This document shows, in pieces, positions 46,076-51,263 of a stretch of DNA of 64,000 nt. How positions within the stretch are numbered: position 1 is the stretch's first letter; each line of letters opens with the position of its first letter. The translations under genes were made by a program, and so were the position numbers. The DNA is from Thermococcus celer Vu 13 = JCM 8558. Its GTDB lineage: Archaea > Methanobacteriota_B > Thermococci > Thermococcales > Thermococcaceae. The DNA lies in assembly GCF_002214365.1 (NCBI RefSeq), contig NZ_CP014854.1, positions 434,001 to 498,000 on the forward strand, written 5' to 3'. The notes below the pieces were generated by a model, which was not told where the DNA came from, did not search any database, and was given only the letters and a program-made list of their open reading frames with translations.

Positions 46076-47437
46076 TTAGGTGGTTTCCCTTTTAACCTCA
46101 ACCCTCCAGTCGAGGAGCCTCTTCTCACCTTCAATCTTCCTGTACTCGGCGATGTCCATCGTCATCTCAAGCGTCCCCATGTAGTTCCCGCCCTTATCGA
46201 AGAGCGGCACGTACTTGATGTAAACGTACTTCGGACCGAGGTGGAGCCAGAAGGTCGCCTCGCTCTTCCTGCCCTCCTTGAAGGCCCTCAGGATCCTGTT
46301 GACGATATGGACGCTCTTCGGCGGGTGGCAGAGCTGGACCGGCCTTCCGAGCACGGAGAGGGTTCTGTCGAATATCCTCTCGCCGGGTGAGAAGAACCTG
46401 ACGCGGTCGTCCCTATCGATGAACGTCACGTCAACGGGGAGTGCCTCGAATACCGCCCTGAGCTCTTCGACGTTCATATAACCAGTGCCCATGTCTACGT
46501 CGCCCTCGCGCTTGAGCTCCGATTTATCGAATTCCAGCGGTTTTCCCTTCAGTGCCTGCTGGACCTCCTTTGGAAGGCCTAGGAGCTGTTCAACGCTGAG
46601 CTCCGGGTCTATCTCCCAGGGATGGAGGGGCTTGACGTCCTCGCCGGGATCCCATGCGGGCGGGTTAACCTTGTAAAAGCCCATCTCCTCTTCCTGCTCC
46701 CTGATGGCCTTCCACTCGCCGTCTGTGAGTAGGGCCTTGAGGGTTGGGTAGTAGATGTTATTCTCCCTGAATACCATATCGCTGAGAGCGAAGGAGAGCT
46801 TCCCACCTTTCTCCACCAATCTGGAGGTGAACTCGTCCCAGGGGAGCTCGTTCTTCCTCTTCAGAAGCTCCGCAAAGTGCTTTATCATAAACCTTATCTC
46901 GTCGTGTTTCGTCCAGAGGACGGTGGCTATCGCGGTAAGTCCCCTGCGCTCGATGTACGGGAAGATCAGCATCTCCTCCCTGTTGTAGTGGGTGAAGCCG
47001 ACCCCCCTGAGGTCACTGATCAGCTCCTCCAGAACGCCAAGGATCTCCTTCCCCATCCTTTCGTCCTTCGTCGAAGCTAATGTTCTCGCGTAGAGGTTCA
47101 GCATCTCGGCGTCCTTCATTATCTCCTTATTCTCAGCGTAGAGCGTCTTGAGAGGGTGGCCGTCCGGCAGGTCCCTCTCCTCGAGTTCGTCCGTTCCGGC
47201 CACGGACTCCCTGAAAAGCTCGACGTGGAGGTCGCACATCTTCGCTATGTCCTTGGCAGAGACGCCCTCCTTAACGAGTTCCTGCTCTACGATTGGAATC
47301 TCAAGGGGCGAGATACCGCTCAGAACCTGGCGGAACTCCTCTTTAAGGGTGTTAACGTCTTCCCCGTTGTGAATCCTGAGGATGAGCTTCTTCAGTTCCT
47401 CCTTCTTGTGTTCACGATTGTTTAGTAATTCGGTCAC
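46076..47437 (-). CDS. DUF438 + hemerythrin-like + PAS domain protein
   Basis: Soluble sensor-like protein of 453 residues. Order: DUF438 (about 1-85, with EELKKLILRIHNGEDVNTLK), a hemerythrin HHE domain (about 90-240: GHPLKTLYAENKEIM, HYNREEMLIFPYIERRG, TKHDEIR and FRENNIYYPTL supply His/Glu iron ligands), and a C-terminal PAS domain (about 320-440, with FEALPVDVTFIDRDDRVRFFS and ICHPPK-like LCHPPKSV). A di-iron centre could sense O2 or NO. It starts with GTG at 47437 after GGTGATAAA. Divergent from the DUF2249 gene with matching palindromes at both promoters. Confidence 0.87.
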   Translation of the reverse strand: MTELLNNREHKKEELKKLILRIHNGEDVNTLKEEFRQVLSGISPLEIPIVEQELVKEGVSAKDIAKMCDLHVELFRESVAGTDELEERDLPDGHPLKTLYAENKEIMKDAEMLNLYARTLASTKDERMGKEILGVLEELISDLRGVGFTHYNREEMLIFPYIERRGLTAIATVLWTKHDEIRFMIKHFAELLKRKNELPWDEFTSRLVEKGGKLSFALSDMVFRENNIYYPTLKALLTDGEWKAIREQEEEMGFYKVNPPAWDPGEDVKPLHPWEIDPELSVEQLLGLPKEVQQALKGKPLEFDKSELKREGDVDMGTGYMNVEELRAVFEALPVDVTFIDRDDRVRFFSPGERIFDRTLSVLGRPVQLCHPPKSVHIVNRILRAFKEGRKSEATFWLHLGPKYVYIKYVPLFDKGGNYMGTLEMTMDIAEYRKIEGEKRLLDWRVEVKRETT

Positions 47438-47449
47438 TTTATCACCTTC

Positions 47450-47526
47450 ATGACAAGTGTCATATTAGGTACTTTTAAGTGTTTCTGGACATAGTTGCCC
47501 AGCAACGTTTATATGTCGCATGTCAT
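47450..47526. promoter_or_regulatory. Two related TGTCAT operator-like sites in a divergent promoter
   Basis: ATGACAAGTGTCAT (47450-47463) is a perfect ATGACA-N2-TGTCAT palindrome. ATGTCGCATGTCAT (47513-47526) matches it at 10 of 14 positions. Each lies just downstream of the TATA-like element of the gene it faces (minus-strand CTTAAAAGT at about 47472-47480; plus-strand GTTTATATG at about 47508-47516). This symmetrical placement suits a repressor acting on both genes. Confidence 0.65.
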
Positions 47527-47546
47527 AAAAGGAACGGTGATAAAAG

Positions 47547-48029
47547 ATGATGCTCGACGTCCGTGGAGTACAGCCTCCCCAGCCGGCGATTAGGATTGCG
47601 GAGGCCCTAGGTAAGCTCAAAGTAAGAGAGACCCTCGAGGTGATAGGCGACAGGCCCTTCGTCGATTTCATTCCAGGGCTCGAGGAAGCGGGTTACGAGA
47701 TCGAGGTTAAGGAGGTCGGAGGGGCGTTCGTCCTCAGGGTAACGAAGACCGAGAACTCAAGGGAGCTCTCGATGGAAGTCAGGGAGTGCGACGATAAGCT
47801 GGACGAGATAACGGAGAATACCAACGTGGGCAAGCTCCTCAAGGCCTACCCGGAGTCGTTGAGGGTACTCGTGAAGTACGGTTTCTCGCCCCTCGAGACC
47901 CCCGGGACGAGGAGGAGCCTCGCAAAAACGATAACCCTGAGGAAGGCGAAGGAGCTCATCGGGATGAGCGACGGGAAGTTTGAGGAGATGATGGAGGAAC
48001 TTAGGGCCATCAAAAGGATCAAAGCCTGA
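47547..48029 (+). CDS. DUF2249 + DUF1858 domain protein
   Basis: A 160-residue protein with an N-terminal DUF2249/TusA-like domain (about 1-72: LDVRGVQPPQPAIRIAEAL...DFIPGLEEAGYEIEVKEVGG) and a C-terminal DUF1858 part (about 88-158: TNVGKLLKAYPESLRVLVKYGF). The CPxP motif of true TusA sulfur carriers is replaced by QPPQP, so sulfur transfer is unlikely. In bacteria this domain pair accompanies DUF438/hemerythrin genes in NO or redox stress, as here with the divergent neighbour. ATG at 47547 follows GGTGATAAAAG. Confidence 0.8.
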   Translation: MMLDVRGVQPPQPAIRIAEALGKLKVRETLEVIGDRPFVDFIPGLEEAGYEIEVKEVGGAFVLRVTKTENSRELSMEVRECDDKLDEITENTNVGKLLKAYPESLRVLVKYGFSPLETPGTRRSLAKTITLRKAKELIGMSDGKFEEMMEELRAIKRIKA

Positions 48030-48282
48030 ACTTTTCCTTGATTCTTTAATTATTGAAATAGCTAATTAAACACTTCCATTTTTCAAGAGGTAGGAAAGGA
48101 GAAAAGGGAGAGGAGATCAATCTACATCCTTCGCAAAGGCGGAACCCTCCTCCACTTTACCCCCTTCCACATCATATCCTGAACGTCAGCCCCGGGTTGT
48201 GGTGAGTCCGATAGCAAGGGACCCTTGGAATCCCAAAATCTCGTGGAAACCCTTAAATATTCCATCCGTCATAAACTCTACC

Positions 48283-48669
48283 ATGAGGACCAACGCCTTC
48301 GAGGTGGCCTCGCGCTACGTTTACCCCTCGCTGAGAAGGAGACTCGTCGAGATACTCCGCGAGAAGGGGCTCAAACAGGTAGAGATAGCGGAGTTGCTCC
48401 ACATAACCCAGTCCGCCGTTTCTCGATACCTCGGGATGGACAGGGGCGCGCTGGTGGACGTTTCCCGATACCCCGATATAGACGGGGAACTCCGGTCTCT
48501 CGTGGAGGAGGTCATCGAGAGAAAGCCCGATGAATACTATATTCACAGGCGTTTGGTTGAGATCTCCCTGGAGATGCTCGGAAAGGGTTACGTCTGCTCT
48601 TTCCACTCAAAGATCGACCCCGAGGTAAACCCCGAGGAGTGCCGCGTCTGCCTCGAACTTTTCGGGTGA
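48283..48669 (+). CDS. HTH transcription regulator (COG2522-like) with C-terminal cysteines
   Basis: A 128-residue predicted regulator: N-terminal RYVYPSLRRRLVEILREKGLK with HTH LKQVEIAELLHITQSAVSRYLGMDRG (about residues 26-52 by position), then a helical linker and a Cys-containing tail GYVCSFHSKIDPEVNPEECRVC that could bind metal or Fe-S. ATG at 48283 lies about 25 bases after TATA-like CTTAAATATT with no ribosome binding site, so the message is probably leaderless. The 250 bases upstream hold no other gene. Confidence 0.75.
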   Translation: MRTNAFEVASRYVYPSLRRRLVEILREKGLKQVEIAELLHITQSAVSRYLGMDRGALVDVSRYPDIDGELRSLVEEVIERKPDEYYIHRRLVEISLEMLGKGYVCSFHSKIDPEVNPEECRVCLELFG

Positions 48670-48740
48670 TCTAAGTCCCCTCGGCCCGGCTAAGACAAAG
48701 TTTAATACGTTTTGAGGAGATTCTCAATGAGGTGGTTGAA

Positions 48741-49553
48741 ATGAAAAGGGCCCTCGTTACACTCACGCCGCCTGAGGGCAAGAGGCTCATCGCCAGGGCC
48801 GTTGCGGCGATGCCGGAAGTTCAGGACGCCCTCAAACACGGTTTCGTGTACATAGCCACGGGTACCACCGCGGCCTACGTGGCCGAGGAGATACTCGGCG
48901 AGGACATCGAGAAGGAGAAGTGGACGGTCGGAGTTATAAGCAGGGGTAGAACCTGCGTCACACCGAAGGAGACCTGGCCGAAGCACCTCGTCCTCTACAG
49001 GGGCGAGCCCTTCGACGACCCGCTCGAGGCCCTCAAAAGGATGGGGCCGAGGGATGTCTTCATCAAGGGCGCCAACGCGATAGACATCAACTGGAACGTG
49101 GCGGTTTTCGCGGCCGCCCCCGACGGCGGGACGATAGGGAAAACCTACGGCTGGACGATAACCAAGGGGGTCTTCACGATAACGCCGGTGAGCCTCGAGA
49201 AGTTCGTGCCGACGCCCGTGGAGGAGAGCGCCAGGCTCACGGGCATACACTCCTTCGACTGGGGGACGGGCCTCTACGCGGCGCTCGTGCCTATACCCCA
49301 CTCCCACCCGGTTACCGAAGTTGAGGCCTACAGAATTCTTGCGGGCGTTGAGGCCATCCCGATAGCCGCAGGAGGTGCCGGGGAAGCCGAGGGGAGCGTT
49401 ACCCTCGTCCTCGAGGGGGACGAGGAGGCGATGGAGCGGGCGAGGGAGGTAACCAAAGAGGTTAAAGGGGAACCCTACCTCAGGCCCTACACGGAGGACT
49501 GCTCGGTCTGCCCCTTCGCAAAGATATGCGGCCCTGGAAGCGGTGCCCTCTGA
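48741..49553 (+). CDS. Conserved protein of unknown function with C-terminal Cys motif
   Basis: A soluble 270-residue protein that I do not recognise. Visible are an N-terminal alpha-beta region (LVTLTPPEGKRLIARAVAAM; FVYIATGTTAAYVAEEILG), a glycine-rich middle (IKGANAIDINWNVAVFAAAPDGGTIGKTYG by position about 110-140) and a C-terminal CSVCPFAKICG that could bind a metal or Fe-S cluster. No membrane segment. ATG at 48741 follows GAGGTGGTTGAA. It runs into the cytochrome-b-like gene with almost no gap, so the two are probably co-transcribed. Confidence 0.6.
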   Translation: MKRALVTLTPPEGKRLIARAVAAMPEVQDALKHGFVYIATGTTAAYVAEEILGEDIEKEKWTVGVISRGRTCVTPKETWPKHLVLYRGEPFDDPLEALKRMGPRDVFIKGANAIDINWNVAVFAAAPDGGTIGKTYGWTITKGVFTITPVSLEKFVPTPVEESARLTGIHSFDWGTGLYAALVPIPHSHPVTEVEAYRILAGVEAIPIAAGGAGEAEGSVTLVLEGDEEAMERAREVTKEVKGEPYLRPYTEDCSVCPFAKICGPGSGAL

Positions 49554-49563
49554 GATGGTGCCG

Positions 49564-50124
49564 GTGAAGCGCTTTATGGCTTTCTTTTTATCGACCCTTT
49601 TAATGGCCCCGCTCGTCATGGCGGAGGGTGAAGGAGAGCTGGAGGCGGGATACGGAGGACTGACCGCCCTCGGGGTGGGCCTCATAGCGGTTGGCGTGGT
49701 CTATTACTCGCTGACGAAGCGGAAGCTCCTTATAGTCCACAAAAAGTCAAGCGAGTGGGGATTTGAGATAAGACCCGCCCATCCCTACGTAACGGTGTTC
49801 GGTCCCGTTTATCCCATCACCATTCACCACTTCCTCACGATAACGGGGACGCTGCTGGCCTTCGTCCACTTCCTCTCATCCCCCACGTACAGCGGACTCC
49901 GCGGGGGCACGGGTCTGGGTATGGCCATTCTCCTGATACTCCTGAACCTGAGCGGTTTCTTCGGTAGATACGTCTACGGAAGGATTCTCATCGCGGCAAA
50001 GAAGCACGACAGGAGGAAGGCAAGGAGGTTCGTCGGGCTGCTGGGCTACTGGAAGACGGTCCATACGGCCCTTGCCGTCCTGTTTGCGATACTGCTGGCG
50101 GTGCACCTCGCAATCGGGGATTGA
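49564..50124 (+). CDS. Four-helix membrane protein with cytochrome-b-like HX13H pairs
   Basis: Predicted signal sequence (MKRFMAFFLSTLLMAPLVMA) and four further helices. Helix 2 (ITIHHFLTITGTLLAFVHFL) and helix 4 (VHTALAVLFAILLAVHLAIG) each hold two histidines separated by exactly 13 residues. Two HX13H helices in a four-helix bundle is the heme-ligand pattern of di-heme b-type cytochromes and ferric reductases. The short loops include basic KKHDRRKARR. Start choice (GTG 49564 after GGTG; ATG 49555 or 49576 are alternatives) is uncertain. Heme binding is inference; no heme-synthesis genes are in this window. Thioredoxin and CcdA genes follow. Confidence 0.6.
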   Translation: MKRFMAFFLSTLLMAPLVMAEGEGELEAGYGGLTALGVGLIAVGVVYYSLTKRKLLIVHKKSSEWGFEIRPAHPYVTVFGPVYPITIHHFLTITGTLLAFVHFLSSPTYSGLRGGTGLGMAILLILLNLSGFFGRYVYGRILIAAKKHDRRKARRFVGLLGYWKTVHTALAVLFAILLAVHLAIGD

Positions 50125-50192: not shown

Positions 50193-50543
50193 ATGGACGA
50201 GCTCGAGATGATACGGAGAAAGAAGATGCTTGAACTCATGAAGAGGGCGGGAATGATCGAGGAGAAGCCAAAGGGGCCCAAAGTCGTCATCGAAGTTATA
50301 ACGTCGCCCGGCTGTCCTTACTGCCCGATAGCCTGGGCAATGGCTCAGGAACTCGAGAGGAAATACAAAGGGGTCGTGGCGAGGGAACTGAGCGTTGCGA
50401 CGCCGGAAGGCCGGAGGAAGGCGATGGAGCACAACATCCTTGGAACGCCGACGATACTCATAGACAACCGCGTGGAGTTCGTGGGGGTGCCTAACTTCGG
50501 GGAGTTCGAAAGGCGGGTGAGGGAAAAGCTTGGCCTAAGGTGA
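50193..50543 (+). CDS. Thioredoxin/glutaredoxin-like protein with CPYC active site
   Basis: Thioredoxin-fold protein of 116 residues. The redox motif CPYC is at residues 41-44 (SPGCPYCPIAW), with the cis-Pro motif in LGTPTILIDN. An unusual charged N-terminal helix (MDELEMIRRKKMLELMKRAGM) precedes the fold. It probably exchanges electrons with the CcdA-type membrane protein encoded convergently, whose stop overlaps its end by 9 bases. ATG at 50193 follows GGGGTGAGGGT. Confidence 0.85.
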   Translation: MDELEMIRRKKMLELMKRAGMIEEKPKGPKVVIEVITSPGCPYCPIAWAMAQELERKYKGVVARELSVATPEGRRKAMEHNILGTPTILIDNRVEFVGVPNFGEFERRVREKLGLR

Positions 50544-51263
50544 CGCCCCCGAGAGAACCCAGAGGCCTATGGCCACCAGCAGGGCTCCGGCCACAACCGA
50601 GAGCTCCCTGCTCCTCCTCACCATCGCCTGGGAAAAGCGCTTGCTCTCGGTTACGCTCCCCATCGCCAGCAGTATGACGACCAACGGAAGGACAAAGACC
50701 ACGTTGTAGAGGGCGAGGAGGAGGAAAGCGAGCGCCTTCCCGGTCCGCGAGATTATTATCGCGTAGACGAGGTAGCTACCAGCGGAGCACGGCAGGAGGG
50801 TGGTCGAAACTATAACCCCCAGCGTGAAGGCCCCCAAGGCCGTTGCATCGCTCCTGAACATCCTCCTTCTGATCTCACCTTTATCCCCGATGCGGGAGCG
50901 CTCCATCAGGCCCGTGACCATCGTGTATAATCCAAAGGCTACCGCCGCTATTCCCGCGACCCAGAGGGGGAGATGGCCGGCGAAGTAGAGCAGGCCGACG
51001 CCGAGAAGGTAGTAGGAGACGTAAACGGCCAGGATAAAGGCGGCGCCGATGAGGTAAAGCCGTCCCTTCGACACCTCCCTGACTGAGAGCGCTATGAGGA
51101 GCATCGTGTATATCACGAAGGTGCAGGGGTTAATGGAGTCGCTCAGGGCCAGGGCGAAGAACTTGGGGATAAATCCCACCATCCCGAGGAGGTAGAGCGC
51201 GAGCGAGCCCACTCCAAAGGATGCCAGAAGGATAATCGCCAGTCCCTTCACCTCGGCCTTCAT
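50535..51263 (-). CDS. ccdA: CcdA/DsbD-type transmembrane thiol-electron transporter
   Basis: Membrane protein of 242 residues with six predicted helices. CcdA-type redox cysteines are Cys47 in LSDSINPCTF and Cys159 in STTLLPCSAGSY, which shuttle electrons from cytoplasmic thioredoxin to the outside of the membrane. The adjacent convergent thioredoxin-like gene and the upstream heme-pattern protein fit a small membrane redox module. A perfect SurR-type site (51311-51327) lies 48 bases upstream of its start. Confidence 0.87.
   Translation of the reverse strand: MKAEVKGLAIILLASFGVGSLALYLLGMVGFIPKFFALALSDSINPCTFVIYTMLLIALSVREVSKGRLYLIGAAFILAVYVSYYLLGVGLLYFAGHLPLWVAGIAAVAFGLYTMVTGLMERSRIGDKGEIRRRMFRSDATALGAFTLGVIVSTTLLPCSAGSYLVYAIIISRTGKALAFLLLALYNVVFVLPLVVILLAMGSVTESKRFSQAMVRRSRELSVVAGALLVAIGLWVLSGASP

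Follow-up and report, generated by a model that had tools for sequence, protein, structure and literature searches.

A probable di-heme b-type membrane cytochrome in Thermococcus celer and other Thermococcaceae

Introduction

Membrane proteins of the ferric reductase/NOX type (PF01794) and the four-helix bundle of cytochrome bc1/b6 have two helices that each carry a pair of histidines 13 residues apart. Prokaryotic cytochrome b561/Ni_hydr_CYTB proteins (PF01292) are membrane heme b proteins. A further group consists of bacterial cytochromes annotated as 'iron reductase' (e.g. Legionella fallonii WP_045097759.1 and Bradyrhizobium WP_011930963.1), which are encoded in operons of the order FAD/2Fe-2S oxidoreductase, cytochrome b, cytochrome c3.

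For heterotrophic thermophilic sulfur reducers of the Thermococcales type, energy metabolism has been described without cytochromes or quinones (PMC9431562). Seven species of Pyrococcus and Thermococcus are listed as having no tetrapyrrole genes, and heme uptake by archaea has precedent (PMC3004389). An earlier note on the DNA studied here referred to the lineage as regarded as cytochrome-free, which is too strong: cydAB (cytochrome bd) genes have been reported in T. gammatolerans (PMC2718504), cytochrome bd genes have been published for T. sp. AM4 (PMC3512248), and we found cydA over cut-off in 18 Thermococcus genomes.

Here we describe a gene, designated CYB, that lies on the forward strand at positions 49555..50124 of a 64,000-nucleotide stretch of the T. 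celer genome (the window) and encodes a probable di-heme b-type membrane cytochrome of 189 amino acids. Like the T. gammatolerans bd oxidase (PMC2718504), CYB would be a heme protein in a lineage without heme synthesis; the two are, however, unrelated. With the bacterial 'iron reductase' cytochromes, CYB has in common four histidines at identical spacing, a G-F-x-G-R motif after TM3, a tryptophan before the third histidine and the order of the helices. The protein type is known from bacterial c3 operons, whereas the Thermococcaceae version has a shorter TM3-TM4 stretch, adjoins neither a FAD/2Fe-2S flavoprotein nor a multiheme cytochrome c, and occurs in hosts without heme synthesis.

Results

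The reading frame of CYB runs from an ATG at 49555 (MVPVKRFMAF...) to a stop codon ending at 50124; the earlier note had the same end and placed the start three codons late, at the GTG at 49564. The gene is single-copy in the 1.87-Mb T. celer genome. Its product begins with an N-terminal hydrophobic helix, which precedes four transmembrane helices; a small soluble hairpin comes after TM1. The original description as a four-helix membrane protein was therefore right about the transmembrane helices and missed the extra N-terminal one, which is either a signal peptide or a fifth transmembrane helix like that of the bacterial relatives. An AF2 model of residues 33-189 is confidently four-helical (pLDDT 92, pTM 0.83). 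CYB is under purifying selection (dN/dS 0.13-0.20), weaker than that on the neighbouring genes (roughly 0.04-0.10), and in the tree the T. celer branch (0.27) is longer than those of its sisters.

The claim that helices 2 and 4 each carry two histidines separated by exactly 13 residues was borne out: His91 (49825-49827) and His105 (49867-49869) lie in TM2, His170 (50062-50064) and His184 (50104-50106) in TM4, all on the forward strand. With 13 residues in between, the spacing is 14, which brings the two histidines of a pair to roughly the same helix face. The loop between TM3 and TM4 and the segment that follows TM1 are basic and, by the positive-inside distribution of charges, would lie inside, which places His91 and His170 near the cytoplasmic face. 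By the same charge argument, His105 and His184 would lie near the outer face, so that TM2 and TM4 would together form two bis-His pairs: His91 with His170 as predicted ligands of an inner heme, and His105 with His184 as predicted ligands of an outer one.

If four histidines are placed at random in two 22-residue helices, the chance that both pairs are spaced by 14 is about 0.0005. Conservation is a stronger test than this probability. All four histidines are invariant in 35 of 35 aligned Thermococcaceae homologues, in 37 of 37 sequences of another alignment, and in 26 of 26 sequences (T. celer CYB included) drawn from Thermococcaceae, a second archaeal phylum, Pseudomonadota and Bacteroidota. 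Whether they vary among homologues was the check set in the earlier note; no variation was found, and the invariance extends to bacteria. Other histidines behave differently: among the 35 sequences, His62, His76 and His151 vary freely, and His92, adjacent to His91, is a glutamine in two. Tyr51, Gly98, Gly134 and Arg138 are also invariant across both domains (26 of 26), the latter two belonging to the G(F)xGR motif kept after TM3, and Trp166, which precedes the third histidine, is found in 25 of the 26.

We also noted that residue 109 (49879-49881), an outer-side position close to His105, is a serine in T. celer CYB; 34 of 35 Thermococcaceae homologues have a cysteine there.

Outside the family, a profile search of 396 genomes gave a single clear relative, which belongs to a different archaeal phylum; searching that phylum gave three (L074, L080 and L081). 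These have the invariant residues of CYB and are the nearest archaeal relatives found outside Thermococcaceae; they differ from CYB in that the gene directly downstream of each of the three encodes a c-type cytochrome containing 7-8 CxxCH motifs. Bacterial relatives were sought by tblastn against plasmids with the second-phylum archaeal proteins as queries, and eight loci were read. In seven of them, the cytochrome b gene is flanked directly by genes for a FAD-binding or 2Fe-2S oxidoreductase on the upstream side and a 7-CxxCH protein on the downstream side; near the eighth, from Emticicia, lie genes for cytochrome c biogenesis and c3. Both oxidoreductases that were scanned contain FAD/NAD/Fer2 domains, and two of the cytochromes were domain-scanned as well. 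Three of the eight bacterial proteins carry the record label 'iron reductase', and the Alteromonas copy adjoins a hydrogenase. In the tree, Thermococcaceae CYB forms a separate clade, with long branches between the groups. No CYB relatives were found in the viral contigs scanned. Among CYB's own neighbours no multiheme cytochrome c is present, and the c3-type cytochrome family PF14537 stayed below cut-off in all 115 genomes of the class.

The layout of these operons bears on the idea that CYB handles heme, as a membrane heme carrier or sensor, and does not carry electrons. A lineage that must scavenge heme might well use a membrane bis-His protein to bind or relay it. The relatives, however, are encoded with a flavoprotein on one side and a multiheme protein on the other, as in an electron conduit, and the Thermococcus copies mostly adjoin redox genes and not heme transporters; we consider a heme-handling role very unlikely.

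No curated family matched CYB or its outside relatives over cut-off. PF01292 matched at 16.9 bits (E 0.0057) for CYB, below its gathering cut-off of 30.1 bits, and at E 3.6e-4 for a relative, again below cut-off. PF14358 (DUF4405) gave 14.8 bits for CYB against a cut-off of 26.7, and 11 of 28 family members match it weakly. The ferric reductase transmembrane domain PF01794 (cut-off 28 bits) had no match to CYB and reached 14.5 bits for one bacterial relative; CYB differs from the ferric reductase/NOX and bc1/b6 proteins in having no sequence match to them over cut-off and no FAD/NADPH domain. Searching two AF2 models against the PDB with Foldseek returned nothing at E <= 0.001: the best hit was at E about 0.4, and cytochrome b561 (4o6y/4o7g) appeared at E about 0.9. 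When the CYB family was compared with single E. coli cytochromes b (FdnI, MsrQ, HyaC, CybB and YodB) by hhalign, the scores were not separable from those of negative controls.

We next consider where heme would come from. The gene for delta-aminolevulinate dehydratase (ALAD) is absent from every Thermococcaceae genome and present in 14 genomes of sister families. No heme b synthase (AhbD) was found over cut-off in Thermococcaceae, and the one sub-threshold match examined proved to be TIGR04053. The expectation that heme synthesis genes would be missing was thus upheld, and heme would have to be scavenged. No heme importer was identified near the CYB copies examined. The cytochrome c assembly family PF01578 is absent from Thermococcaceae except at one contig edge, and the T. 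celer genome has no Ccm. That sole match (L101:64-1020, edge of contig 18 of G114) has 44.6% G+C, against 37% at the CYB locus of the same genome, and may be a contaminant or else a genuine CcsA-like gene.

In a cell unable to make heme, CYB might keep its ligand set and yet bind another metal or another imported tetrapyrrole, or be mostly apo. The lack of ALAD, of heme b synthase over cut-off and of Ccm in T. celer, together with the lack of a heme importer near the copies examined, fits such a reading. Against it, the four histidines and the flanking Gly, Arg and Trp are kept in relatives that sit beside multiheme cytochromes c, i.e. in heme-rich settings, and purifying selection continues in Thermococcus. 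On balance, a cofactor other than heme, or a mostly apo protein, seems unlikely.

Cytochrome bd genes lie in quinone-type islands with ferrochelatase in the genomes read. The four islands (L128/G064, L129/G062, L130/G090 and L131/G039) contain genes for ferrochelatase (PF00762, E 1e-63 in L129), a sulfide:quinone reductase-like protein, UbiD and UbiA-type proteins. Three of the four also contain a TIGR04053 radical SAM protein, two Peripla_BP_2 proteins and a FecCD/ABC importer, and the islands resemble a module for salvaging porphyrin or heme in genomes that lack ALAD.

A supply of heme to CYB from the bd islands found no support in the co-occurrence of the two genes in the genus: 9 of 61 Thermococcus genomes have both genes where about 9 are expected (Fisher p = 1.0), and cydA is absent from the T. 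celer genome. Since CYB and cydA are independent and T. celer has no cydA, the islands do not explain the heme of CYB. The same result weighs on the proposal that CYB is a quinone-linked respiratory subunit, like formate dehydrogenase gamma or cytochrome b561. The weak PF01292 similarity speaks for it, as do the quinone-type genes that some Thermococcus have along with cytochrome bd (PMC2718504), but CYB is not associated with the bd/quinone islands, and no dehydrogenase or reductase catalytic subunit adjoins it; unlike PF01292 proteins, it has no hydrogenase or formate dehydrogenase partner at the T. celer locus. We regard this proposal, too, as highly doubtful.

Among 115 genomes of the class, CYB matches were found in 39, all Thermococcaceae and from 6 genera. 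The distribution is patchy, with the gene intact in about 35 genomes and broken or partial in four. The broken or partial copies, at L038 (G093), L039 (G111), L040 (G089) and L041 (G110), indicate repeated gene loss in the family.

In the main clade, the gene order is regulator, Cys-tail protein, CYB, thioredoxin-like protein and, convergent, CcdA. In T. celer, a helix-turn-helix regulator (48199..48669, forward strand; PF01022/HTH_3), conserved in the cluster, stands upstream. It is followed by the 273-residue Cys-tail protein immediately upstream of CYB (48732..49553, forward), which belongs to no Pfam family and has one upstream Cys and a C-terminal C-x2-C-x5-C; these four cysteines are invariant in 18 of 18 homologues. 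Its C-terminus gives a weak Cas4-like match. The cysteines suggest a cluster, making it a likely FeS protein, and its family is present in 60 of the 115 genomes. Downstream of CYB lie a conserved thioredoxin/glutaredoxin-like gene with a CPYC motif (50193..50543, forward; PF13192, E 1.2e-8) and, on the reverse strand, a CcdA/DsbD-like transmembrane protein (50535..51263) named by sequence, with no Pfam or NCBIfam family over cut-off. All three neighbours of CYB are as first reported.

Farther upstream of the cluster, the window has divergently arranged genes for a DUF438-hemerythrin-PAS protein and a TusA-DUF1858 fusion (46076-48029), which are near the cluster in many genomes.

The Cys-tail gene is also paired with CYB in other genera whose CYB shares only about 30% identity. 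Five genomes retain the Cys-tail and CcdA genes without CYB (L117-L121; G034, G060, G063, G054 and G051), three of them with the thioredoxin gene and two without, and CYB resembles a removable module of the cluster. As several CYB copies also occur without the cluster, dependence of CYB on the Cys-tail, thioredoxin and CcdA proteins is weakened as an explanation. The membrane electron path through CcdA and thioredoxin suggested in the earlier note is accordingly plausible but loose, and CcdA, being nearly universal in Thermococcaceae, is not specific to CYB.

A second, accessory clade of CYB is found near genes for NADPH-dependent FMN reductase, peroxiredoxin and FTR1 iron permease, and one of its members (L088) adjoins a DsbD-like gene. 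An accessory-clade copy lies on a 49-kb plasmid of Thermococcus peptonophilus (NZ_CP014751.1; L076:780-1349), surrounded by FTR1 iron permease, NADPH-dependent FMN reductase, peroxiredoxin and YHS/heavy-metal domain genes.

With a CcdA/thioredoxin or DsbD-like gene adjoining CYB in several clades, and with Cys109 so widely kept in the family, CYB could be thought of mainly as a thiol-redox partner of CcdA acting through this outer cysteine. The serine of T. celer CYB, the lack of the cysteine in distant relatives and the near-universal occurrence of CcdA without CYB make this reading extremely improbable.

Discussion

The invariance of the four histidines, together with the operons that the relatives share with multiheme cytochromes c, supports well the reading of CYB as a di-heme b-type cytochrome. 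The confident four-helix model, purifying selection, the sub-threshold match of archaeal relatives to PF01292 and the redox neighbourhoods of the main and accessory clades also speak for it. We conclude, from sequence comparison, that CYB is probably a transmembrane electron carrier of this kind. Counting against it are the missing heme-making genes, the lack of a significant PDB match or of a curated family over cut-off, the patchy distribution and the lack of co-occurrence with the bd islands. The sequences themselves show the geometry and invariance of the ligands, the homology, the operon settings and the missing heme-making genes; heme occupancy, the direction of electron flow, the partners and the substrate are what we infer beyond this, and our confidence in any particular partner or substrate is much lower.

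As we picture it, TM2 and TM4 would hold two hemes in a stack that spans the membrane, and single electrons would travel through it, linking a redox protein in the cytoplasm to an acceptor or donor at the outer face. In the bacterial and other archaeal relatives, the role of outer partner would fall to the 7-8-heme cytochrome c and, in most bacteria, that of inner partner to the FAD/2Fe-2S oxidoreductase. Thermococcaceae, which have no c-type partner, seem to use local redox proteins instead. In the main clade these would be the FeS-like Cys-tail protein along with thioredoxin and CcdA, and in the accessory clade the FMN reductase near the FTR1 iron permease. By analogy with the flavoprotein-linked operons, electrons would flow outward, and the outer reaction would most likely reduce an external substrate, e.g. 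ferric iron, disulfides or oxidants. The Alteromonas copy beside a hydrogenase makes inward flow possible.

More tentatively, and as a possibility that we hold at somewhat less than even, roughly one in three sequenced genomes of the class, all of them Thermococcaceae and fermenters without heme synthesis, may run a di-heme wire on scavenged heme, with no c-type or quinone-linked partner alongside, and could in this way reduce iron, thiols or oxidants outside the cell. Thermococcales are model anaerobes, and a conserved di-heme protein in them would mean that heme is obtained from outside the cell. Two questions are thereby made testable: heme acquisition by these archaea and their electron transfer to the cell exterior.
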